A DNA stretch of 64,000 nucleotides from Cellulosimicrobium cellulans (GTDB taxonomy: Bacteria; Actinomycetota; Actinomycetes; Actinomycetales; Cellulomonadaceae), in the NCBI RefSeq assembly GCF_016921195.1, contig NZ_JAFGYF010000001.1, forward strand, positions 434,001 through 498,000, written 5' to 3'. Both the position numbers and the translations under genes were made by a program. Every line of letters begins with the position of its first letter. Position 1 is the first letter of the stretch. Below are positions 30,931 to 63,831 of the stretch, one piece after another. The notes beneath the pieces were generated by a model. That model worked only from the letters and a program-made list of their open reading frames with translations, searched no databases and was not told where the DNA came from.

Positions 30931-33480
30931 GTGCAGCTCCACGGCGAGACCACCGCCGCGGCCGGCGAGACGGCCGCAGCCCCGGGCACGACGACCGGTG
31001 TCGTCCCGACCGCGAGCCTGACGCTCCTGGAGAAGGCGGCGCTCCTGACGGGGAAGTCGGTGTGGGAGACGTACGACGTCCCGCGGCTGGGTCTGCGCTC
31101 CCTGTGGCTCGCCGACGGTCCGCACGGCGTGCGCAAGCAGCTCGGCGCCGCCGACCACCTCGGCATCGCGGCCTCGCAGGAGGCCACGTGCTTCCCGACG
31201 GCCGCCGCCGTGGCGAACACGTGGGACGTCGAGCTGGCGGAGCGCGTGGGCGCCGCGCTCGGCGCCGAGGCCGCGGCGCAGGACGTGGACGTGCTCCTCG
31301 GCCCGGGGCTCAACATCAAGCGCTCGCCGCTCGGCGGGCGCAACTTCGAGTACTTCTCCGAGGACCCGCTGCTCGCGGGCCGGATGGCCGCCGGGTACGT
31401 GCGCGGGATCCAGTCCCGCGGCGTCGCGGCGTGCCCCAAGCACTTCGCGGTGAACTCCCAGGAGCTGCGCCGCATGGTCTCGGACTCCGTGGTCGACGAG
31501 CGCACGCTCCGGGAGGTCTATCTCACGGCGTTCGGGATCGTCGTCGCGGAGGCGCGGCCCCGGACCGTCATGTCGTCGTACAACCTCGTGAACGGCGTGT
31601 ACGCCCACGAGGACCCGTTCCTCCTCACGCAGGTCCTGCGCCGGGAGTGGGGCTTCGACGGCGCGGTCGTCTCCGACTGGGGCGGGTCGAACGACGTCGT
31701 CGCCGCCGCCGCGGCGGGCGGCACGCTCGAGATGCCGGCCGCCGGCCTGGGCTCGGCGCGCCAGCTCGTGGACGCGGTGCGCTCGGGCCGACTCGACGAG
31801 GCCGACCTCGACGCGCGCGCGGCCGAGATGCTGCGCCTCGTCGCCGCGGCCCGCGAGCCGGGTACCGCTCCGGCCGTGGACGTCGACGCGCACCACGCGC
31901 TGGCCCGCGAGGTGGCGGCGCGCTCGGCGGTGCTGCTCAAGAACGAGGACGCGATCCTGCCGCTCGCCGCGGGGACGCGGGTCGCGGTCGTCGGCGACTT
32001 CGCGCGCACCCCGCGCTACCAGGGCTCCGGCTCGTCCGCGGTGAACCCGACGCGCCTCGACAGCGTGCTCGACGTGATCGGGGACTCGGGCCTCGAGCTG
32101 GCGGCGTTCGCCCCCGGCTTCCACCGCGACGGCACGCCCGACGCGGCGCTGCGCGAGGAGGCGGTCGAGGCCGCGCGCGGCGCCGACGTCGTGCTCCTGT
32201 TCCTCGGTCTCGACGAGATCGCGGAGTCGGAAGGGCTGGACCGCTCGACCCTCGCGCTGCACCCGGCGCAGGTCGAGGTGCTCCAGGCCGTGGCCGCCGC
32301 CAACCCGGCGACCGTCGTGGTGCTCGCGGGCGGCGGCGCGATCTCCACCCCGTGGCTCGGCTCGGCCCGCGCGCTCGTGCACGGCTACCTCTCCGGGCAG
32401 GCCGGTGCCGGTGGGATCCTCGACGTGCTCACGGGCGTCGTCAACCCCTCTGCGCGGCTCGCCGAGACCTTGCCCGTGCGCCTCGCGGACACCCCGACCG
32501 CCGGGTCGTTCCCCGCGACCGGGCGCACCGCGGTCTACCGCGAAGGCCTGTACGTCGGGTACCGGTACTACACGAGCGCCGACGTCCCCGTGGCCTTCCC
32601 GTTCGGCTTCGGCCTGTCGTACACGACGTTCGCGCACTCCGGCCTCGTGGTCGCCGCGGACACGACGACGGACACGACGACGGACACGGCGACGGACACG
32701 ACGACGGGCTCGGCGACGGTCCCCGCGACGGTCACGGTGACCGTGACCGTGACGAACACCGGGACGGTCGCCGGGGCCGACGTGGTGCAGGTGTACGTGA
32801 GCCGCGAGACCCCCGGCGTCCACCGCCCGGTCCGCACGCTCGCCGGGTTCGTGCGCGTCGAGCTCGAGCCGGGCGAGTCGCGCACGGTGACGGTGCCCCT
32901 GGACGACGGGGCGTTCCGGCACTGGGACGTGGCGACCGGCGCGTGGCAGGTCGAGCAGGGCGCCTGGTCGGTGCTGGTCGGGTCCCACGTGGACGACCTC
33001 CCGCTCGGTGCGACGGTCGAGCTCACCGGTACGGTGCCGCCCCGCAGCGAGGACGACCTGCCCGAGCCGTACCGCACCGGGCGCGTGCACGACGTGTCGG
33101 ACGCCCAGTTCGCGGCGCTCCTGGGCCGTCCCGTCCCGACGTCGGCGTGGTCCGGTCGCCTCGGCGTCAACGACCCGCTGTCGCGCCTCGCCGACGCGCG
33201 CTCGCCGCTGGCCCGCCTCGCGTTCCGGATCCTGTCCTGGCGACGCGACGCGGCGGACCGCAAGGGCGCGCCGGACCTCAACGTCCTGTTCCTGCTCAAC
33301 ATGCCGTTCCGGGCCATCGGGAAGATGACCGGCGGCATGGTCGACGCCGCGATGGTCGACGGCATCGTCCGCATCGTCAACGGCCACCTCTTCCGCGGCA
33401 CCGGCGCCGTCCTGCGCGGGTTCGTCCGCAACCGCCGTGCCGACCGTCGTACCGCCCGCACCCTCCGCGGCGACGCGTGA
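30931..33480 (+). CDS. Cytoplasmic GH3 beta-glycosidase with C-terminal extension
   Basis: An 849-residue GH3 enzyme in normal domain order and without a signal peptide. Barrel: RSLWLADGPHGVRKQ, NIKRSPLGGRNFEYFSEDP, CPKHFAVNSQE, nucleophile D249 in GAVVSDWGGSND. Sandwich domain with ESEGLDRS, where E434 is the likely acid/base. A Thr/Asp spacer (DTTTDTTTDTATDTTT) leads to a fibronectin-III-like domain (VTVTNTGTVAGADVVQVYVS). About 130 extra residues follow (SWSGRLGVNDPLSRLADA region; LFLLNMPFRAIGKMTGGMV), probably amphipathic and membrane-associating. AAGGAGAG precedes GTG 30931. It is followed at 20 bases by gtrA, so it may act on an intracellular or membrane-bound glycoside. Confidence 0.9.
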   Translation: MQLHGETTAAAGETAAAPGTTTGVVPTASLTLLEKAALLTGKSVWETYDVPRLGLRSLWLADGPHGVRKQLGAADHLGIAASQEATCFPTAAAVANTWDVELAERVGAALGAEAAAQDVDVLLGPGLNIKRSPLGGRNFEYFSEDPLLAGRMAAGYVRGIQSRGVAACPKHFAVNSQELRRMVSDSVVDERTLREVYLTAFGIVVAEARPRTVMSSYNLVNGVYAHEDPFLLTQVLRREWGFDGAVVSDWGGSNDVVAAAAAGGTLEMPAAGLGSARQLVDAVRSGRLDEADLDARAAEMLRLVAAAREPGTAPAVDVDAHHALAREVAARSAVLLKNEDAILPLAAGTRVAVVGDFARTPRYQGSGSSAVNPTRLDSVLDVIGDSGLELAAFAPGFHRDGTPDAALREEAVEAARGADVVLLFLGLDEIAESEGLDRSTLALHPAQVEVLQAVAAANPATVVVLAGGGAISTPWLGSARALVHGYLSGQAGAGGILDVLTGVVNPSARLAETLPVRLADTPTAGSFPATGRTAVYREGLYVGYRYYTSADVPVAFPFGFGLSYTTFAHSGLVVAADTTTDTTTDTATDTTTGSATVPATVTVTVTVTNTGTVAGADVVQVYVSRETPGVHRPVRTLAGFVRVELEPGESRTVTVPLDDGAFRHWDVATGAWQVEQGAWSVLVGSHVDDLPLGATVELTGTVPPRSEDDLPEPYRTGRVHDVSDAQFAALLGRPVPTSAWSGRLGVNDPLSRLADARSPLARLAFRILSWRRDAADRKGAPDLNVLFLLNMPFRAIGKMTGGMVDAAMVDGIVRIVNGHLFRGTGAVLRGFVRNRRADRRTARTLRGDA
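32658..32705 (+). repeat. Four tandem copies of a 12-base unit within the GH3 gene
   Basis: GGACACGACGAC repeats four times (one copy has a single change), encoding the DTTT-type spacer before the fibronectin-like domain. In-frame length variation here would only change the linker length. Confidence 0.8.
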
Positions 33481-37283: not shown

Positions 37284-38356
37284 GCACCCTCACCGTGGCG
37301 AAGGCGCTCGGCGCCGGGCTGCGTCGCGCGATGACGGACGACGACCGCGTGGTCGTCATGGGCGAGGACGTCGGCCGGCTCGGCGGCGTCTACCGCGTGA
37401 CGGACGGGCTCCAGGCGGAGTTCGGGCCGCGCCGCGTGCTCGACACCCCGCTCGCGGAGTCCGGGATCATCGGGACGGCCGTCGGGCTCGCGTACCGGGG
37501 CTATCGGCCGGTGTGCGAGATCCAGTTCGACGGGTTCGTGTTCGTCGCGTTCGACCAGATCCTGTCCCAGCTCGCCAAGATGCACGCGCGCACGGGCGGG
37601 ACGGTGCGCCTGCCGATCACGATCCGCATCCCCGTGGGCGGCGGCATCGGCGCGGCCGAGCACCACTCGGAGTCGCCCGAGGCGCTGTTCGCGCACACGG
37701 CCGGGCTGCGCGTGGTGTCGGTCGCGAACCCGCAGGACGCGTACACCGTGCTGCGCCAGGCCGTCGCGTGCGACGACCCGGTGATCTTCTTCGAGCCCAA
37801 GCGCCGGTACCACCTCAAGGGCGAGGTCGACCTCGACCCCGTCGACCCGCCGCCCATGGGCCGGGCCCGCGTCGTGCGCGAGGGCCACGACGTCACGCTC
37901 GTCACGTGGGGCGGCCTCGTCGGGACCGCGCTCGACGCCGCCGTCGCCGCGTCCGACGACGGCGTGTCCGTCGAGGTCATCGACCTGCGCTCGCTCTCGC
38001 CGATCGACCACGACACCGTCGCGGCGTCGGTCCGCAAGACGGGGCGCGTCGTCGTGACGCACGAGGCGCCGCGGCAGGCCGGGCTCGGCGCGGAGATCGC
38101 CGCGACCGTGACCGACCGCTGCTTCGAGTACCTCGAGGCCGCGCCCGTCCGCGTCACGGGCCACGGCATGCCGTACCCGCCCGCGAAGCTCGAGGGCCAC
38201 TACCTGCCGGACCTCGACCGCATCCTCGACGGCGTCGACCGCGTCCTGGGGCGGGTCGAGCCGTTCGTGCCGCGCGCGGTGCCCGACGCCGGCGTGCCGG
38301 ACGGTGCCACCGGGTCGCCGGGCGCGGTCCGCACCCCGGAGGCGGTGGCCCGATGA
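37280..38356 (+). CDS. bkdB: Branched-chain 2-oxoacid dehydrogenase E1 beta
   Basis: A 358-residue transketolase-like E1 beta. Conserved [75 protein letters not shown], and the C-terminal domain segment EVIDLRSLSPIDHDT. The protein ends with a 30-residue Pro/Ala/Gly tail not needed for the fold. Start ATG overlaps the E1 alpha stop, and the stop overlaps the E2 start, so the complex subunits are translated in step. Confidence 0.92.
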   Translation: MSTLTVAKALGAGLRRAMTDDDRVVVMGEDVGRLGGVYRVTDGLQAEFGPRRVLDTPLAESGIIGTAVGLAYRGYRPVCEIQFDGFVFVAFDQILSQLAKMHARTGGTVRLPITIRIPVGGGIGAAEHHSESPEALFAHTAGLRVVSVANPQDAYTVLRQAVACDDPVIFFEPKRRYHLKGEVDLDPVDPPPMGRARVVREGHDVTLVTWGGLVGTALDAAVAASDDGVSVEVIDLRSLSPIDHDTVAASVRKTGRVVVTHEAPRQAGLGAEIAATVTDRCFEYLEAAPVRVTGHGMPYPPAKLEGHYLPDLDRILDGVDRVLGRVEPFVPRAVPDAGVPDGATGSPGAVRTPEAVAR

Positions 38357-40014
38357 TGACGATGCGCGAGTTCCGCCTCCCCGACCTCGGGGAGGGCCTC
38401 ACCGAGTCCGACATCGTGAGCTGGCACGTCCACGCGGGCGACCGCGTCGAGCTCAACCAGGTCATCGCCGAGGTCGAGACGGCCAAGGCGCTCGTCGACC
38501 TCCCGTCCCCGTACGCCGGCGTCGTCGCGTCGCTGCACGCCGAGGAGGGCCAGACGGTCACCGTCGGCGCCCCCCTGGTGACGTTCGAGATCGACGACGA
38601 CACCCTCACCCCCCAAGACGCCGAACCCGGGGATACGGCCGGGCTCGGCCCCGTCGATGACGACAAGCCCGGGTTCGACGCCACCCCGACCCGGGACGTG
38701 GCCGCCGGTCCGCCGGGGGCTGACGACGGGCCGGAGCCCAACCTCGTCGGGTACGGCGCGCGGCCGGAGAGCACGGGCCGCCCGGCGCGACGCCGTCGGA
38801 CCCGACCCGCCGACACCGTGGGGACGGTCGGGACGGCCGTCGAACCCGGGGTTGTGGCCACCCGGGGCGCCGAACCCGGCGACATCCCCGGGTTCGGCGC
38901 GCGGGGGGACGACGGCGGGACGCGCGGCCGGGCGGTGGAGCGGCCGCGGTCGACGCCGCCGGTGCGGGCGCTCGCGAAGAAGCTCGGCGTGCGCATCGAC
39001 CGCGTGGAGGGCACCGGACGTGGCGGTCTCATCACGCGCGAGGACGTGCTCGCGGCGGTGAGCTGTCATCGGGAGGTCGTGCGCCCCGCGCGCGTCGCCG
39101 CCACCCGTGCTGCGGCAGGCGCGGCACCCACCCCCGGCACGACGGCCCATGGCCCTGCCGGCACCGGGCTCGCCCACGCGCCGGAGCCCGGCACGACGCC
39201 GTCCGATCCGGCCGGCGGCCCCCGTACCGTGCCCGCCGCGACCGCCGCGGGGTTCCCGGCCGGCCTCGAGCCGGACGTGGTCCCCGTGCGGGGCGTGCGC
39301 AAGCACACCGCGGCGGCGATGGTGTCGAGCGCGTTCACGGCGCCCCACGCGACCGTGTTCCTCACGGTCGACGTGACGCGGAGCGTCGAGCTCCTGGAAC
39401 GGCTGCGCACCCACCGCCTCGCGCGCGGCGCGCGGGTCACCGTGCTGGCGCTCGCGGCCCGGGCGCTGTGCCTCGTGCTGCCGCGCCACCCCGCGCTCAA
39501 CAGCGCGTGGCGCGACCTCCCCGACGGCTCCGCGGAGATCGTGCGCCACCGGCGGGTGCACCTGGGGATCGCGGTCGCGACCGACCGGGGGCTCGTCGTG
39601 CCGCACGTGCCCGACGCGCAGGACCTCGACCTGCCCGACCTCGCCGCCGCGCTCACCGACCTCACGACCACCGCGCGCGACGGCCGCACGACGCCCGAGC
39701 GCCTCACCGGCGGGACGATCTCGATCACCAACGTCGGGGTGTTCGGCGTCGACGCGGGCACCCCGATCCTCGTGCCGGGCGAGGCGGCGATCCTCGGCCT
39801 GGGCGCGGTGCGACGCCGGCCCTGGGAGCACGACGGCGAGGTCGCGCTGCGCGACGTCGTCACCCTCAGCCTGTCGTTCGACCACCGCGTGGTCGACGGC
39901 GAGCAGGGCGCGCGCTTCCTCGCCGACCTGGGCGCACTGCTCGAGGACCCGGCGCTCGCGCTCCTCGCGGGTGGTGCGGTGCCCGACCGACGGCAGGGAG
40001 AGGTGACCGGATGA
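38353..40014 (+). CDS. bkdC: Branched-chain 2-oxoacid dehydrogenase E2 (lipoamide acyltransferase)
   Basis: A 553-residue E2. One lipoyl domain (residues 5-80) with K45 in [11 protein letters not shown]; a peripheral-subunit-binding domain around 198-235 ([30 protein letters not shown]); and a catalytic domain from about 310 with [20 protein letters not shown] and the catalytic H511 in [11 protein letters not shown]. The linker between lipoyl and binding domains (about 88-195) is unusually long and carries two palindromic DNA elements read in frame. No E3 (dihydrolipoamide dehydrogenase) lies in the window. ATGA overlaps join it to both neighbours. Confidence 0.92.
38621..38680. repeat. In-frame palindromic element, copy A (E2 linker)
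   Basis: Inverted repeat CGAACCCGGG (38622-38631) and CCCGGGTTCG (38668-38677) inside the E2 coding sequence, read as [20 protein letters not shown]. It shares its arms with copies B and C, but its centre differs. Confidence 0.65.
38839..38912. repeat. In-frame palindromic element, copy B (E2 linker)
   Basis: Arms CGAACCCGGGG (38841-38851) and CCCCGGGTTCG (38886-38896), with an internal half-copy CGAACCCGG at 38871-38879. It is read as [20 protein letters not shown]. About 59 of 70 aligned bases match copy C at 45.6 kb, in the same reading frame. Confidence 0.8.
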
Positions 40015-41651
40015 CCGTCCTGACGAGCGCCGTCGATCCCGGGTCGGAGACGGCGCGGGCGAACGACGCCGCGCAGCGCGCCCTTGCTGACGAGCTGCGC
40101 GAGCGCACGGCCGACGTCGCGCGCGGAGGCCCGGCGTCGGCGCGCGACCGGCACGTCGCGCGCGGCAAGCTGCTGCCGCGCGACCGCGTCGACCGGCTGC
40201 TCGACGAGGGCAGCCCGTTCCTCGAGATCGCGCCGCTCGCCGGGTACGGCGTGGACGACGGCGCGTGGCCGGCGGCGGGCGTCGTCGCCGGGATCGGGAT
40301 GGTGAGCGGGCGTCAGGTCATGGTCGTGTGCAACGACGCGACCGTGAAGGGCGGCACGTACCACCCGCTCACGGTGAAGAAGCACCTGCGGGCGCAGGAG
40401 ATCGCGCTCGAGAACCGGTTGCCGTGCGTGTACCTCGTCGACTCGGGCGGCGCGTTCCTGCCCCGGCAGGCCGAGGTGTTCCCGGACCGCGACCACTTCG
40501 GCCGGATCTTCTACCACCAGGCGCGCCTCTCGGCGGCGGGGATCCCGCAGATCTCCGCGGTGCTCGGGTCGTGCACGGCGGGCGGCGCGTACGTGCCCGC
40601 GATGAGCGACGAGACGGTCATCGTGCGCGGGCAGGGCACGATCTTCCTCGGCGGGCCGCCCCTCGTGAAGGCGGCGATCGGCGAGGTCGTGACCGCCGAG
40701 GAGCTCGGCGGCGGCGAGCTGCACGCGCGCCGCAGCGGGGTCGTCGACCACCTGGCCGACGACGACGAGGACGCGATCGACACCGTGCGCCGCATCGTCG
40801 CGACGCTCGCGCCCGACCCGGAGCCGGCGTGGGACGTCGCGCGGAGCGAGCCACCCCGCGTGGCGGGCACCGCTGTACAGGATCCGGGGGAGGATCTGTA
40901 CGCCGCCGTCCCGGCCGACGTCCAGGCCCCCTACGACCCGCGCGAGGTCATCGCCCGGCTCGTCGACGGGAGCCGGTTCGACGAGTTCAAGCGCGAGTAC
41001 GGCGACACGCTCGTCACCGGCTTCGCGCGGATCCACGGGCACCCGGTGGGGATCCTCGCGAACCAGGGCGTGCTGTTCTCGGCGTCCGCGCTCAAGGGGG
41101 CGCACTTCGTCGAGCTGTGCGACCAGCGCGGCATCCCGCTGCTGTTCCTGCAGAACATCTCCGGCTTCATGGTCGGCACGGACGCCGAGGCGGGCGGGAT
41201 CGCGAAGGACGGCGCCAAGATGGTCACGGCGGTCGCGACGACGCGCGTCCCGAAGCTCACGGTGATCGTCGGCGGGTCGTTCGGGGCGGGGAACTACTCG
41301 ATGTGCGGGCGCGCGTACTCGCCGCGCTTCCTGTGGTCGTGGCCCGCGAGCCGCATCTCCGTGATGGGCGGCCCGCAGGCCGCGTCCGTGCTGTCGACCG
41401 TCAAGCGCGACCAGCTCGCGGCGCGCGGCGAGACGTGGGACCCCGACGAGGAGGCCGCGTTCTCCGCCGGCATCCGCGCCGACTACGACGAGCACGGCAG
41501 CCCCTACTACGCGACCGCGCGGCTGTGGGACGACGGCGTGATCGACCCCGCCGACACGCGCCGCGTGCTCGGCCTCGCCCTCGGCGTGTGCGCGCGCACG
41601 CCCCTCGCCGAGACCTGGACCGGTGACCGGTTCGGCCTCTTCCGGATGTGA
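40011..41651 (+). CDS. accD1: Acyl-CoA carboxylase beta (carboxyltransferase), probably methylcrotonyl-CoA
   Basis: A 546-residue carboxyltransferase that moves CO2 from carboxybiotin to acyl-CoA. The two crotonase-like halves are visible: [57 protein letters not shown]; then [20 protein letters not shown] and [20 protein letters not shown]. The [20 protein letters not shown] pattern is characteristic of 3-methylcrotonyl-CoA carboxylase beta. Context (E1/E2, isovaleryl-CoA dehydrogenase, MaoC, CitE) matches leucine breakdown and the mycobacterial AccD1. ATGA overlap with E2. Confidence 0.92.
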
Positions 41652-41655
41652 GCCG

Positions 41656-43920
41656 ATGACCCCCGACACCCTCCACGACGCGGACACCCACCCGACCGGC
41701 GCCCCCGGGTTCCGCACGGTCCTCGTCGCGAACCGCGGCGAGATCGCGTGCCGCGTGATCGGCACGCTGCGCCGCCTCGGCGTGCGGTCCGTCGCCGTCT
41801 TCTCCGACGCCGACGCCGGCGCGCGCCACGTCCACGAGGCCGACGTCGCGGTGCGGCTCGGTCCCGCGCCCGCCGCGCAGAGCTACCTGGACGTCGACGC
41901 CGTCGTGGCGGCGGCCGTCGCGACCGGCGCCGAGGCGATCCACCCGGGCTACGGCTTCCTCTCGGAGAACCCTGCGCTCGCCCGCGCGTGCGAGCGCGCC
42001 GGGATCGCGTTCGGCGGGCCGGGCGTGGGCGCGCTCGAGGCGATGGCCGACAAGCTCGCCGCCAAGCGCATCGTCGGCGCGCGGGGCGTACCGGTCGTGC
42101 CGGGGGCGGGCGAGCCCGGCATGTCCGACGACGACCTCCTCGCCGCCGCGAGCGGCGTCGGGTTCCCGCTGCTCGTCAAGCCGTCCGCCGGGGGCGGCGG
42201 CAAGGGGATGGTCGTCGTGCGGGCGGCCGGCGACCTGCCCGGGGCGCTCGCGTCGGCGCGCCGCGTCGCCGCGTCGTCGTTCGGGGACGACACGCTCCTG
42301 CTCGAACGGCTCGTCGAGGCGCCGCGCCACGTCGAGGTGCAGGTGCTCGCCGACACGCACGGCACCGTGGTCCACCTCGGCGAGCGTGAGTGCTCGCTCC
42401 AGCGCCGCCACCAGAAGGTCGTCGAGGAGGCGCCGTCGCCGCTCCTCACCCCGGCGCAGCGCGCCCGCATGGGCGAGGCCGCGTGCGAGGTCGCGCGGTC
42501 CGTCGGGTACGTCGGCGCCGGGACGGTCGAGTTCCTCGTGCCCGCCGCGACCCCCGACGAGTTCTTCTTCATCGAGATGAACACGCGGCTCCAGGTCGAG
42601 CACCCCGTGACCGAGATGGTCACGGGCCTCGACCTCGTCGAGCTCCAGCTCCGCGTCGCGGCGGGTGAGCCGCTGGGGGTCGCGCAGGACGACGTCGTGC
42701 TCCGCGGCCACGCCGTCGAGGCGCGCCTCTACGCCGAGTCGCCCGAGCGCGGGTTCCTCCCGGCCACCGGGTCGGTCCTGGTGTACGACGACGGCGGCGT
42801 GCCCTCCGGGCCCGGCGCCTCGCCCCTGCGCCTCGACTCCGGGATCTGCGCCCGCGCCGTCGTGAGTGGGCACTACGACCCGATGCTCGCGAAGGCCGTC
42901 GCGTGGGGCGAGACGCGCGACGAGGCCGTGGAGCGCCTCGACGGCCTGCTCGCGCGGACGGTCGTGCTGGGCGTCGAGACGAACACGGCGTTCCTGCGGT
43001 CCCTGCTCGCGGACGACGACGTCCGTGCGGGCCGGCTCGACACCGGCCTGATCGACCGGCTCGTGGGGTCGGTGGTCGGGCCCGGCGAGGGGCCGGGCGG
43101 TCCGGACGCCGTCGACCTCGTCGCCGCAGCCCTGTTCCTCGCCGAGCATGCGGTTGTTGCCCGTCCTGGGGACGGGACGGGGCACAACCGCATGCTCGGC
43201 GGGGGGATCGGGGGGCGGGACGGCGATCCCTGGCGGGCGGGGGACGGGTGGCGGCTCAACGGGGACGCGGCGCCGCGGCGGGTTCTGCTCGTCGATGCCG
43301 CCGGGGGCCCGCACGAGGTGCGGGTGTCCGGGGTGGTGGGGGACGCCGTCGTGCACGTGCCGGCACCCGACGACGGCGCGTGGTCCGGATCGACGACGCA
43401 CGTGGTGCGGGCGTCGCTCGCCCGGGACCCCGGGGCCGACGGCGCGTGGTGGCTGACGGTGGACGGCGTCCGGGAGCGTGTGCGGCTCGCGATCGACGCG
43501 CCGCCCGCCGCCGACGGCGTGCCCGCGACGGTGTGGGTGTGGCGCGACGGGCGGACCGTCGCCCTGGCCGCGCCGGACCGCGAGCAGCGCGCCGCGCGGG
43601 CGCGGGCCGACCGCCGTCGGGCCCGGGGAGACGCACCCGACGCGACCGACCCCGAGGTGCGCGCCGCGATGCCCGGCACGGTGGTGACGGCCGTCGCGGA
43701 CGGCGAGGCCGTCACCGCCGGGGCCGTCCTCGTCACGGTCGAGGCCATGAAGATGGAGCACCCGCTGCTCGCCCCGCACGACGGCGTCGCCGACGTGCGC
43801 GTACGCCCCGGCGACCTCGTGCGCCGGGACCAGGTGGTCGCCGTCGTCCACCCCCACGACTCCGGCGCGGCACAACCCGCCGCCCCGGTCCCGCAACCCG
43901 ACACCCAGGGAGCATCATGA
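41656..43920 (+). CDS. accA1: Acyl-CoA carboxylase alpha (biotin carboxylase + BCCP)
   Basis: A 754-residue biotin-dependent subunit. Biotin carboxylase: [41 protein letters not shown]-grasp loop [14 protein letters not shown], and [20 protein letters not shown]. The C-terminal BCCP domain has the biotinyl lysine K699 in [15 protein letters not shown]. Residues about 496-515, between the carboxylase and the middle domain, come from a long DNA palindrome read in frame and look like an insertion. It starts four bases after accD1 and overlaps the dehydrogenase gene by ATGA. Partner: AccD1. Confidence 0.93.
43141..43200. repeat. In-frame 60-base palindrome inside accA1
   Basis: Outer arms GCCGAGCATGCGGTTGT (43141-43157) and its exact complement at 43184-43200 enclose an inner hairpin CCCGTCC (43160-43166) / GGACGGG (43170-43176). 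The element is a whole number of codons and is read as [20 protein letters not shown]. The arms differ in sequence from the E2/MaoC family. Confidence 0.85.
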
Positions 43921-45092
43921 TCGAGGCCGACGTCCTGCTCGACGACGAGCAGCGGAAGCTCAGCCAGGTGGTGCGCGACTTCGCGGACAGCGTCGTCGCG
44001 CCCGCCGCCTACCGCTACGACACGGAACGCCGCCTGCCGATGGAGATCATCGCGCAGATGGGGGAGCTGGGGCTGTTCGGGCTGCCCTTCCCACGCGACG
44101 TCGGCGGGCAGGGCCAGGACTACGTGTCGCTGTGCCTCGCCGTCGAGGCGCTCGCGCGCGTCGACCAGTCCATCGCGGTGACGCTCGAGGCGGGCGTGGG
44201 GCTGGGGATCGTGCCGATCTACCGGCACGGCTCGCGCGAGCAGCAGGAGCGCTGGCTGCCGGACCTGCTCGCCGGCAAGGCGCTGGCGGCCTTCGGGCTC
44301 ACGGAGGCCGGGGCCGGGTCGGACGCGGGCGGCACGCGCACGACCGCGCGGCTCGACGGCGACGAGTGGGTGATCGACGGGTCCAAGCAGTTCATCACCA
44401 ACTCGGGGACCCCCATCACGAGCCTCGTGACCATCACCGCCGTGACGGGCGAGACGGTCGGCCAGGACGGCGAGGTGCGCAAGGAGCTGTCGAGCATCAT
44501 CGTCCCGGCGGGGACGCCCGGGCTCGAGGTCGGGCCGTCGTACGACAAGGTCGGCTGGCACACCTCGGACACGCACCCCCTCACGCTGACCGACGTCCGC
44601 GTGCCCGCCGGGAACCTCCTCGGCGAGCGCGGCCGCGGCTACGCGAACTTCCTCCGCGCGCTCGACGAGGGCCGCATCGCGTTCGCCGCCCTCGCGACCG
44701 GCGCCGCGCAGGGCTGCCTCGAGGAGGCGCTGCGGTACGCGCGTGAGCGCGTCGTGTTCGGGCGGTCGATCGGGGAGAACCAGCACGTGGCGTTCACGCT
44801 CGCCCGCATGCAGGCGCGCGTCCACACCGCGCGCCTCGCGTGGCTCGACGCCGCGCAGAAGCTCGTGCGCGGCAAGCCGTTCAAGGCGGAGGCGTCGGTC
44901 GCGAAGCTCGTCGGCGGCGAGGCCGCGATGGCGAACGCGCGCGACGCGTCGCAGATCTTCGGCGGCTACGGGTTCCTCAACGAGAACTCCGTCGCACGGC
45001 ACTACCGCGACGCCAAGGTGCTCGAGGTCGGCGAGGGCACGACCGAGGTGCAGCTCATGGTCATCGCGAGGAGCCTGGGACTGGACGGCTAG
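43917..45092 (+). CDS. Acyl-CoA dehydrogenase, isovaleryl-CoA type
   Basis: A 391-residue FAD flavoenzyme. [20 protein letters not shown] and [14 protein letters not shown] are the FAD/substrate signatures; [35 protein letters not shown] and [20 protein letters not shown] with [10 protein letters not shown] complete the family pattern; the last motif holds the Glu at the usual catalytic-base position. Placed between methylcrotonyl-CoA carboxylase and MaoC, it should oxidise isovaleryl-CoA to 3-methylcrotonyl-CoA. The mycobacterial counterpart is FadE19. It overlaps accA1 by four bases. Confidence 0.9.
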
Positions 45093-45102
45093 GAGGAGCA
45101 GC

Positions 45103-45726
45103 ATGCGCGAGGTGGTCCAGCGAGGCCTGTACTACGACGAGCTCGAGACCGGCGTGGTGTACCGCCACCGCCCCGGCCGCACGCTCACGGAGGCGGACGA
45201 CGTCGTCTTCTCCACGCTCACGATGAACCACCAGGCGCTGCACCTCGACGCCGCGTGGGCCGCGACGCAGCCGTTCGGGCAGCGGCTCGTCAACTCGATG
45301 ATGACGCTGTCGACGCTCGTCGGGCTGTCCGTGGGGCAGGTCACGCAGGGCACGATCGTCGCGAACCTCGGGTTCCGCGAGGTCGAGTTCCCCAAGCCGC
45401 TGTTCCACGGCGACACGCTCTACGCCGAGACGGAGGTCGTCGAGAAGCGGCTGTCGGCGTCGCGGCCGGGGCAGGGCGTCGTGACGCTCGAGCACCGCGG
45501 CCTCAACCAGGACGGCGTCCTCGTCGCGCGCGCCGTCCGCACCGCGCTCTTCTGGACGCGCGCAGCCCACGAGGCGGCGCCCCCGCGCGTCGGCGCCCAT
45601 GCGCCCGACGCGCCCGCCGAACCCGGGTCTGTGGTCACCGAGGCCGCCGAGCCCGGCGACATCCCCGGGTTCGGCGCAGGGCGTGACGACAGGCCGGGGC
45701 TCGGCGACGAGGAGAGCGCGTGGTGA
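45103..45726 (+). CDS. MaoC-like (R)-specific enoyl-CoA hydratase
   Basis: A 207-residue hot-dog-fold hydratase. [40 protein letters not shown] (the hydratase-2-type Asp/His region), [20 protein letters not shown] and [14 protein letters not shown] follow the MaoC layout. AGGAGGAG precedes the ATG. In mycobacteria the matching protein is proposed to hydrate methylglutaconyl-CoA ahead of the CitE-like lyase. The last 40 residues are a non-homologous tail that includes a palindromic element read as [20 protein letters not shown], close to that in the E2 linker. Confidence 0.88.
45616..45689. repeat. In-frame palindromic element, copy C (MaoC tail)
   Basis: Arms CGAACCCGGG (45618-45627) and CCCGGGTTCG (45664-45673), with the internal segment CCGAGCCCGGCGACATCCC nearly identical to copy B. 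It is read in the same frame as copy B although the host proteins are unrelated. It lies about 16 codons before the stop. Confidence 0.8.
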
Positions 45727-46577
45727 GCCACGACGGCGGGTTCCGGCTCGGGCCGGCGCTGCTGTTCTGCCCCGGCGACCGGCCGGACCGGTTCGCCAAG
45801 GCCGCCGACCGCGCGGACGCCGTCATCCTCGACCTCGAGGACGCGGTCGCCGCAGCCTCGAAGGACGCTGCCCGGCGCGCCGTCGTCGAGGCGTCCGCGA
45901 CGCTCGACCCGGCGCGGACGGTCGTGCGGGTCAACGCCGTCGGGACGCCCGAGCACGCGCTCGACGTGGCGGCGCTCGCGGACACCCGCCTGCGGACGGT
46001 CATGGTCGCCAAGGCGGGCCCGGAGCTGCTCGGCTCGCTCCCCGCGCTCGCGACGACCCTGCCGGGCGTGCGCGTCCTCGCGCTCTGCGAGACGGCGGCC
46101 GGCGTGCTCGCGGCGCCGGAGCTCGCGCGGCGGCCCGAGGTCGTCGCGCTGATGTGGGGCGCGGAGGACCTCGTCGCGTCGCTCGGCGGCACGTCGAGCC
46201 GGCGCCCGGACGGGCCGTACCGGGACGTCGCGCGCCACGCGCGGTCCGCGGTGCTGCTCGCCGCCGGGGCGGCGGCCAAGGCGGCGGTGGACGCGGTGCA
46301 CGTGGACGTCGGCGACCTCGACGGGCTGCGGGCCGAGGCCGAGGACGCCGCCGCGTCCGGGTTCGCCGCGACCGCGTGCATCCACCCGAGCCACGTCCCC
46401 GTGATCCGCGCGGCCTACGCGCCAACGCCGGAACAGGTGACCGCCGCGCGCGCCCTGCTCGACGCGGCGGCCGCGAACCCGGGTGGACCGGACGCCGTCT
46501 TCACGCACGACGGCCGGATGGTCGACGGCCCCGTCCTGCGGCACGCGGAGGCGGTGCTGCGCCGGGCGGGGACCTGA
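45723..46577 (+). CDS. citE: CitE-like CoA-ester lyase (HpcH/HpaI family)
   Basis: A 284-residue TIM-barrel lyase. [40 protein letters not shown] (metal-binding Glu), [50 protein letters not shown] and [15 protein letters not shown] are family motifs. There is no CitD/CitF, so it is not citrate lyase. The mycobacterial homologue in the same operon (Rv2498c) cleaves (R)-3-hydroxy-3-methylglutaryl-CoA and citramalyl-CoA in leucine and itaconate breakdown; that role fits here. GTG 45723 overlaps the MaoC stop; GTG 45720 is also possible. Confidence 0.88.
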
Positions 46578-62932: not shown

Positions 62933-63726
62933 CCACCACGACCCTCCCGGGCGGAGCGCCCGCCGCGGCCCTCCCCGGGCCGCTGCGCCTCACCTGGTTG
63001 CACCTCAAGTACCAGTTCCTCGAGACCGTGCGCGTGCCCGTCGCCGTGCTGGGCAACCTGCTGTTCCCCGCGCTCGCGATGTTCTTCTTCGTCGTGCCGC
63101 AGAAGGAGGTCGCCGGCAACCCCGTGGCTGCGACCATGGCCGTCGCGTCGCTCGGCCTGTTCGCGATCTGCTCGGCGAGCCTGTTCACGTACGGGCTCGG
63201 CGTCGCGGAGGACCGGCAGCTCCCGTTCGACCCGTTCGTGCGCTCGCTGCCCGCGGGCCCGGCGCCGCGCATGGCGGCGCGCGTGCTCAACGGCGGGATC
63301 TTCTCGCTGTTCGGCCTCGTGCCGCTCATCCTCATCGGCTGGTTGTTCACCGACGCGAGCGTGACCTGGGGCCAGCTCCTCGCGGGCGTCGGGACGGTGC
63401 TGCTCGTGTCCGTGCCGTTCGTGCTGCTGGGCATGGCGATCGGTTACTCGCTGTCCGCGAAGGCCGCGCTGCCGGTCGTGCAGGTGATCCTCTTCCCGCT
63501 CGCGTTCGCCGGCGGACTGTTCCTCCCGCCGTTCCTCTTCCCGGACTGGCTGGACGCGATCTCGATGGCCACCCCGACGCGCGCGGGTCGCGACCTGCTC
63601 GTCCAGGCGCTCACCGGCGAGCCCGCGTACGCGGGCGCGTGGTTCGTGCTCCTCGGCTGGACGGTGCTGTTCGCCGTCCTCGCCGTCGGCGCCTACCGTC
63701 GCGACGAGGGCCGCCGTTTCCGCTGA
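62929..63726 (+). CDS. ABC-2 type transporter permease
   Basis: A 265-residue membrane partner with six helices (VAVLGNLLFPALAMFFFVVP; AVASLGLFAICSASLFTYGL; GGIFSLFGLVPLILIGWLF; AGVGTVLLVSVPFVLLGMAI; VVQVILFPLAFAGGLFLPPF; AWFVLLGWTVLFAVLAVGAY). LFLPPFLFPDWLDAISMATP is the ABC-2 motif region. It overlaps the ATPase gene by four bases; the two likely form a homodimeric exporter. The substrate is not predictable. Confidence 0.92.
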
Positions 63727-63737
63727 CCCACCGGTGC

Positions 63738-63789
63738 CGAGCACGACGTCGCTGTCGCTACCCGCGGGACGACAGCAACGTCGTGCTCG
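63738..63789. terminator. Strong bidirectional terminator
   Basis: Arms of 20 bases, 63738-63757 and 63770-63789, complementary except at one position, with a 12-base loop. It lies between two convergent genes. A partial third copy of the arm, GGTCGTGCTCGAC, follows at 63801-63813. Confidence 0.85.
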
Positions 63790-63831
63790 ACCGTGCGCAG
63801 GGTCGTGCTCGACGGCGAGGGCGCGGCCTCG

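Follow-up and report, generated by a model that had tools for sequence, protein, structure and literature searches.

A 60-bp DNA palindrome family within and between the genes of Cellulosimicrobium

Palindromes of the window and of the source genome

The window, i.e., the whole analyzed stretch of 64,000 nucleotides (G000:C1:434001-498000) from a 4.58-Mb Cellulosimicrobium genome, harbors short palindromic DNA elements with three types of outer arms. Three type I copies (A, B, and C) and one type II copy reside within genes for unrelated proteins, and a type III copy lies behind an open reading frame (ORF) (Table 1). The first-pass annotation, which was made from the sequence alone, had described A, B, and C as palindromes that are read in frame in protein linkers or tails, and this description is supported by the Pfam domain borders and by the common frame of the three copies relative to the element (AEPG or VEPG...PGFG or PGFD). 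The type II and type III copies had not been mentioned there. The reported likeness of copies B and C was real, but the number of identical bases is 58/70 rather than about 59/70. As single-stranded DNA, the three copies fold better than dinucleotide shuffles (z of -3.4, -2.8, and -4.1 for A, B, and C; 0/200, 2/200, and 0/200 shuffles, respectively, folded as well), and the type II copy reaches a z of -10.3 in the same comparison. A known Rfam RNA family was rejected for window positions 38000 to 46200: no match in Rfam 15 attained the gathering score, and the sole subthreshold match, F6 on copy B (26.5/46 bits, E value of 0.22), is at chance level. Type III-like copies at other loci (L065, L205, L207, and L218) measure 59 to 61 bp, versus 56 bp in the window.

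Table 1 Coordinates of the palindromic elements and their host genes in the window
Feature	Position	Strand	Size	Description
E2 (dihydrolipoamide acyltransferase) gene	38353..40014	+	553 aa	Pfam domains: lipoyl 6-77, E3-binding 199-233, catalytic 308-537; hosts copies A and B
Copy A	38620..38679		60 bp	Type I; E2 aa 90-109, between lipoyl and E3-binding domains
Copy B	38839..38898		60 bp	Type I; E2 aa 163-182, between lipoyl and E3-binding domains; X module is the second half, 38869-38898
Acyl-CoA carboxylase biotin-carboxylase/biotin-carrier subunit gene	41656..43920	+	754 aa	Pfam; hosts the type II copy
Type II copy	43141..43200		exactly 60 bp	Arms GCCGAGCATGCGGTTGT/ACAACCGCATGCTCGGC; between biotin carboxylase and biotinyl domains; frame 0; basis includes locus L186
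MaoC-like dehydratase gene	45103..45726	+	207 aa	Pfam; hosts copy C
Copy C	45616..45705		90 bp	Type I; 60-bp element 45616-45675 plus weaker third half-site to 45705; C-terminal tail behind MaoC domain; X module 45646-45675
Type III copy	63736..63791		56 bp	GCCGAGCACGACGTCGCTGTCG...CGACAGCAACGTCGTGCTCGAC; 9 bp behind the stop codon of the ORF ending at 63726

The existence of a palindromic family with many copies was borne out in the source genome. A 29-bp pattern of the inner palindrome had 37 matches on the plus strand and 39 on the minus strand (reversed control, 0), and pattern and BLAST searches together yielded 41 sites, a nonexhaustive set from which type II was counted apart and to which the family-wide pattern added a further match at C1:734734. 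The ends of 39 sites could be resolved (C5:62709 and C12:108130 were dropped), giving lengths of 60 bp (27 sites), 61 bp (4 sites), 90 bp (7 sites), and 30 bp (1 site). Facing half-sites were spaced at 30 bp (34 pairs), 60 bp (44 pairs), or 90 bp (12 pairs), and all other spacings together accounted for 16 pairs. The family is built in 30-bp modules, a length divisible by three. The patterns of the genus, type II, family, and pairing scans preset a length of 60 bp; less length-biased evidence comes from the half-site spacing, from a variable-gap search (gaps of 8 to 38 only), and from insert lengths deduced from the flanks, which in 16 pairs aligned near the junction were 59 to 62 bp (8 pairs), 93 bp (2 pairs), or between 66 and 102 bp (the rest).

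According to gene calls of our own codon-position script, rather than of a standard caller, 12 of the 39 resolved sites are located in genes and 27 are intergenic, so the family is not mainly protein coding, as had initially been supposed. (The named-locus set of 24 elements was retrieved from the surroundings of the E2 gene, and its in-gene share is not a rate.) The suspected bias in reading frame was found, with nine of the 12 in-gene sites encoding AEPG...PGFG and three encoding PNPG...PGSA; three frames are used among the element sites overall. Part of this preference is explained by frame 0 being nearly stop free (2 stops in 128 strands of intergenic copies, versus 23 in frame 1 and 13 in frame 2), and an insertion therefore reads through and adds 20 codons.

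The coding copies of the source genome mostly occupy, in frame, linkers or tails of unrelated proteins, as judged by Pfam. Apart from MaoC, the tails belong to an EamA transporter, LutB, an FAD oxidoreductase, and an NrtR-like regulator; the element of PutA separates its two enzymes, that of MetE lies just past the best-matched stretch of the N-terminal domain, that of an SMC/SbcC-like ATPase is found between the two ATPase halves, and two further hosts had no Pfam match. The ATPase gene (L041 1862-5512; AAA_29 and SbcC_Walker_B; element at C1:1033657) is a curious host. Enzymes of the SbcC type cleave DNA hairpins.

It is scarcely credible that the segments are flexible linkers conserved as protein, with base composition giving their DNA its repeat-like look. 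AEPG...PGFG-like peptides do recur in the E2 linkers and the MaoC tail of several species, but different frames are used, and the flanking E2 linker is often unalignable where the DNA arms persist (in pairs chosen by their arms). The peptide linker was rejected as a general account on the basis of the 27 copies outside genes. An ancestral linker had been named at the outset as the finding that would speak against inserted elements, and the comparison of E2 and MaoC orthologues gave a divided answer: within the genus the site is indeed old, yet the recurring feature is a DNA palindrome and not one peptide.

Gene ends, base pairing, and the level of constraint

Intergenic copies, placed by the gene calls of the same script, are associated with gene ends. 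In the spacers of tandem genes, 29 of 30 copies are nearer to the end of the upstream gene (median of 17 bp, versus 124 bp to the next start; p = 6e-8), the distance to the nearest gene end clusters at 14 to 16 bp, and the other intergenic copies are located between convergent (18) or divergent (11) genes. Overall, the elements sit where harm should be small, i.e., just past stop codons, in protein linkers, and in tails.

This arrangement and the strong folds (mean RNA minimum free energy of -43 kcal/mol over 116 elements) are compatible with RNA hairpins at 3' ends that serve as terminators, mRNA stabilizers, or ribosome stallers, for which the repetitive extragenic palindromes (REPs) of Escherichia coli at most 15 nt from the stop codon offer a parallel (PMC12306157, in excerpts). 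Nevertheless, we regard this account as improbable. An intrinsic terminator with a T tract was rejected, as no T-rich tract was found in the 15 bp to the right of 59 intergenic blocks (T fraction of 0.116). Moreover, the species-shared copies inside the E2, PutA, MetE, and SMC-like genes would terminate or stall in the middle of a gene, and the base pairs of the stem also speak against it.

Pairing was assessed in the 116 scanned elements, in which overlapping halves of 90-mers were counted twice. The outer 13 positions are Watson-Crick paired in 92.5% of cells and the inner positions 14 to 25 in 61%, compared with 44% in shuffles and 25 to 31% after a shift of one to three columns. The inner stem exceeded its shuffles in G004 (0.695 versus 0.509), the named loci (0.646 versus 0.447), and G002 (0.727 versus 0.565). 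No pairing of the flanks was observed beyond the 60 bp, save at a weak -1/+1 position; the element ends are symmetric (GCCGA/TCGGC) and bear no unpaired GTAG or CGTC tag. On the transcribed strand, G.T pairs of the inner stem showed no excess over A.C mismatches, which would be the signature of selection on RNA; outside the source genome, the two were about equal (28:30 in genes and 13:8 in tandem spacers). Selection at the RNA level, which should have produced such an excess, was therefore rejected; the numbers are modest, and we infer a constraint on the palindromes at the DNA level.

Distribution, age, and exchange of the elements

Orthologues of E2 with 61 to 81% identity were found in Cellulosimicrobium and in one Oerskovia, the closest stemming from a strain labeled C. 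funkei U11. The search of the genome and its relatives, which the first-pass annotation had proposed, revealed further copies well beyond the source strain. Type I arms (GCCGAACCCSGGG) at 60-bp spacing with at most 2 mismatches occur in 15/17 genomes of the genus, with 26 to 49 copies in 12 genomes and 0 to 3 in the other 5, and type II arms (GCCGAGCATGSGGTT; at most 3 mismatches) in 11/17, e.g., 19 copies in the source genome and 30 in G009. Arms intermediate between the two types exist. A superfamily pattern covering types I to III (60 bp, ends GCCGA/TCGGC) matched 39/200 genomes and 8/25 genera of the family, and one genus other than Cellulosimicrobium was positive in 7/7 sampled genomes with 4 to 33 copies. 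Reversed patterns gave 0 matches in all these genus and family searches. In genus g20, two intergenic spacers contain several 60-bp palindromes in a row (L256 1501-1906, spacing of 83 to 90 bp; L249 1324-1838, spacing of 72 to 206 bp). The initial statement that no such family had been described for this group agrees with the titles and abstracts listed in searches of open-licence PMC papers, which report no palindrome family for Cellulosimicrobium or Cellulomonas.

The view of A, B, and C as fresh insertions was not upheld, since the same positions carry elements with differing inner sequences in several other Cellulosimicrobium species. Both E2 linkers contain 60-bp elements in 6/8 named Cellulosimicrobium loci (L063, L064, L067, L068, L069, and L070) and in G004 and G002, and a third element is present at the 3' end of the gene in five of these six loci (the contig of L070 ends there), G004, and G002. 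A type I arm pair was absent from the E2 genes of L065, L066, and five outgroup loci (Oerskovia, Isoptericola, and Krasilnikoviella). Elements in the MaoC tail were detected in the source genome, L063, L064, L069, G004, and, in degenerate form, L066; in L068, an element directly follows the gene. The carboxylase linker holds a type II-like 60-mer in the source genome, L065, L066, L067, and L069, and a type I element near the same place in L063 and L064; we read this as a site that appears to have remained as its element type switched.

Palindromes of similar length (about 60 bp) but different arms lie in two E2 genes, i.e., L064 9854-9913 (Cellulosimicrobium) and L134 9416-9475 (Krasilnikoviella, unrelated), and the E2 linkers appear to be hot spots for palindromes outside this family as well. 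A further in-frame repeat, which does not belong to this palindrome family and has a peptide unit like HDGAHTPRPLASEVGSPS, is present in the carboxylase linker of L064 (from 13876, repeated), L066, L067, L068, and L069.

For a quantitative comparison, 17 sites of the source genome were placed in three near relatives by their flanks alone, resulting in 43 placements, of which those of one site are not independent. The arm pair was retained in 32/43 placements (at most 6/26 mismatches) and lost in 11/43. In the 19 full-length placements of 60 or 61 bp, identity was 0.889 in the arms, 0.827 in the adjacent 40 bp, and 0.685 in the inner part, the arms exceeding the flank in 16/19; the respective values for all 43 placements were 0.695, 0.796, and 0.551, and the arms were thus ahead only in the full-length set. 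A second comparison, of 56/74 pairs, gave an identity of 0.885 for the arms against 0.561 for the adjacent 40 bp in genes (45 pairs), and of 0.986 against 0.669 between genes (11 pairs). These figures overstate the conservation of the arms because the scan demanded good arms, exact length, and a flank identity of >0.7, and the same sites are repeated across species. The flank-placed result shows that sites are inherited, that elements are occasionally lost, and that the inner part diverges faster than the arms. The element sites are older than the species, both E2 linkers and the MaoC tail being occupied in several of them.

The likeness of copies B and C has a separate cause, namely a 30-bp self-palindrome termed X (GCCGAACCCGGCGACATCCCCGGGTTCGGC), which forms the second half of both. 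X is present at 33/41 sites of the source genome, with at least 29/30 identical bases at 13 of them. It is also found at the B and C sites of L063 (28/30 each) and, decayed (25/30), at the C site of L066. The elements of G004, L064, and L069 at the B and C sites lack X, and an X-like half was found in 5/38 elements of G004, none above 26/30. The simplest reading of these sequences is that, within a single lineage, X spread by copying among sites that already existed, the linker and the tail of unrelated proteins included.

A composite search with 22 joined flanks of the source genome and alignments at 7 sites indicated that absences are ragged deletions. One G002 site retains an in-frame 18-bp scar that fits slippage between two CCCGGG arm repeats, and one 30-mer of the source genome has counterparts of about 60 bp in G002 and G005.

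A rival reading is that the palindrome is a chromosomal DNA site used by the host, in which a protein recognizes the folded or palindromic 60-bp unit for chromosome organization or segregation and selection holds the arms and the length at fixed places. In favor of this, elements persist in both E2 linkers of 6/8 named loci though the linkers hardly align, the arms of the full-length placements are better conserved than the inner part and, by a small margin, than the adjacent 40 bp, and mismatches are about strand symmetric outside the source genome. In addition, the chromosomal position of type I copies was examined in three complete or near-complete genomes, with dnaA at 333 kb (G004), 491 kb (G012), and 2.825 Mb (G007). 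By quarter outward from dnaA, the copies numbered 23/11/4/0 in G004 (38 of 49 copies; Kolmogorov-Smirnov p = 2e-6) and 12/11/6/0 in G012 (29 of 29; p = 0.0017), i.e., they crowd near dnaA and leave the farthest quarter empty. Exclusion from the terminus holds in two of the three genomes. G007 has no such gradient (13/8/7/12, p = 0.61; 12/40 copies in the farthest quarter), which counts against a host site, although we read the shared elements as a sign that its void is probably the same block of genes, differently ordered. A gradient would also result from conserved genes close to the origin, and the arm losses in the flank-placed set, the several arm types within one genome, and the range of 0 to 49 copies within the genus all fit poorly with a host function, which we consider unlikely. 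By eye, the order of shared palindromes in G007:C1 versus G004 and G012 points to a large rearrangement or a misassembly.

Origin of the family and relation to known palindromes

Taken together, we lean towards a nonautonomous family of short DNA palindromes, similar to REPs or to the Rickettsia palindromic elements (RPEs), which would have colonized an ancestor of Cellulosimicrobium and its relatives, acts as DNA, and has been partly homogenized by the copying of modules. Its canonical 60-bp unit comprises two facing 30-bp halves with a conserved outer arm (GCCGA...), a variable inner stem with a tendency to self-complementarity, and a small loop. The palindrome may function as a DNA hairpin or cruciform during replication, and not as RNA. 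X was probably copied among preexisting sites, and pairing may be renewed by template switching or gene conversion. Template switching has been described as turning imperfect palindromes into perfect ones (PMC6649704, in excerpts); alone, it would not equalize arms between sites, and therefore intercopy transfer or selection must also act. Losses and the 30-bp length steps could have arisen by slippage between repeated half-sites. The original dispersal may have relied on a hairpin-recognizing enzyme whose linkage to the elements never existed or has been lost.

Several results weigh against this reading. The inner pairing of 60-bp elements in the source genome was not above that of shuffles (0.479 versus 0.539), and in-gene inner stems of all groups contained more A.C than G.T (40 GU, 67 AC; p = 0.012). 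At the 7 aligned sites, neither a clean 60-bp gain nor any other act of insertion was seen. Target duplications of at least 4 bp were found in 0/59 intergenic blocks and 1/48 in-gene blocks. The RAYT profile (Y1_Tnp, PF01797) had 0 matches in the source genome and was positive in 5/14 control genomes (other transposases and other carriers were not searched); a RAYT-mobilized REP was hence rejected for the source genome. The sharing of X could also stem from the replacement of whole elements. Nested insertion of X at the hairpin apex of older 60-mers, as a source of the 90-mers, was clear at only 2/11 (C1:593173, 28/30; C1:1086451, 26/30) and was rejected (permutation P of 0.37).

A miniature inverted-repeat transposable element (MITE) of a living insertion sequence, with the transposase elsewhere in the genome, could account for the terminal inverted repeats and the dispersed copies of fixed size. 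Given the missing target duplications, the old sites, and inner parts that diverge at mostly constant length, we find this very unlikely, and a target-duplicating MITE was rejected. MITEs such as ERIC resemble the present elements in being dispersed and at times fused to ORFs, but differ in that no target duplication and no parent element are known here (genes flanked by arms were not searched for). Correia/NEMIS elements are further examples of MITEs.

A more far-reaching proposal, which appears doubtful at present, is that the palindromes are neither transposons nor RNA elements but fixed-length 60-bp DNA hairpin sites. Such sites would have stayed at their positions on the chromosome while species diverged, whether the DNA is coding or noncoding, with recognized arms, inner stems that matter only as structure, exchange of 30-bp modules among dispersed copies, and a gradient from origin to terminus. 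This actinobacterial system might be maintained by the host or propagated by template switching, and proteins would have been made to accept 20 extra residues because the DNA site has to remain.

In behavior, RPEs are the nearest known system. Like the Wolbachia palindromic elements (WPEs), they are found between and inside unrelated genes, in frame and with the protein left intact, and orthologues share the insert locus (PMC3767692 and PMC10969869, in excerpts). The resemblance to RPEs noted in the first-pass annotation therefore holds for the in-frame presence in unrelated genes (12/39 sites of the source genome) and between genes, but not for the length. RPEs measure 100 to 150 bp, occur in alphaproteobacteria, and are reported to lose repeat identity with time (PMC6649704, in excerpts), whereas the present elements have 60 bp with 30-bp steps and occur in high-GC actinobacteria; the two are likened by behavior. 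The REP/REPIN-RAYT systems, including GTAG and CGTC REPs, likewise consist of short palindromes with copy numbers in the tens to hundreds, which lie downstream of genes and in some cases within them; their subfamilies have alternative complementary stem residues (PMC3733652, in excerpts). However, REPs of 20 to 40 bp have stems of 5 to 13 bp and an unpaired tag at one end, in contrast to the symmetric 60-bp unit with a stem of up to about 25 bp (the words Actinobacteria and Micrococc- have 0 matches in that paper), and they are paired with RAYTs, which the source genome lacks. Finally, the coding palindromes of Nematomorpha mitochondria are in-gene inverted repeats with coevolving arms that are thought to be kept alike by template switching, but they are not a dispersed family with shared arms (PMC6649704, in excerpts).

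Rickettsia and Wolbachia are the main groups in which protein-coding palindromes are known, and the current study extends them to another, high-GC group with sharper rules, i.e., a quantized length, a frame-neutral size, old shared sites, and shared modules. Shared sites whose inner sequences are often unshared allow one to measure the homogenization of dispersed palindromes by template switching or gene conversion, and to ask whether bacteria keep a DNA structure at the cost of protein sequence. What maintains REP-like palindromes thereby becomes a directly testable question.

Apart from the palindromes, the window contains a short 12-bp tandem repeat (CGGACACGACGA) at positions 32645-32740.

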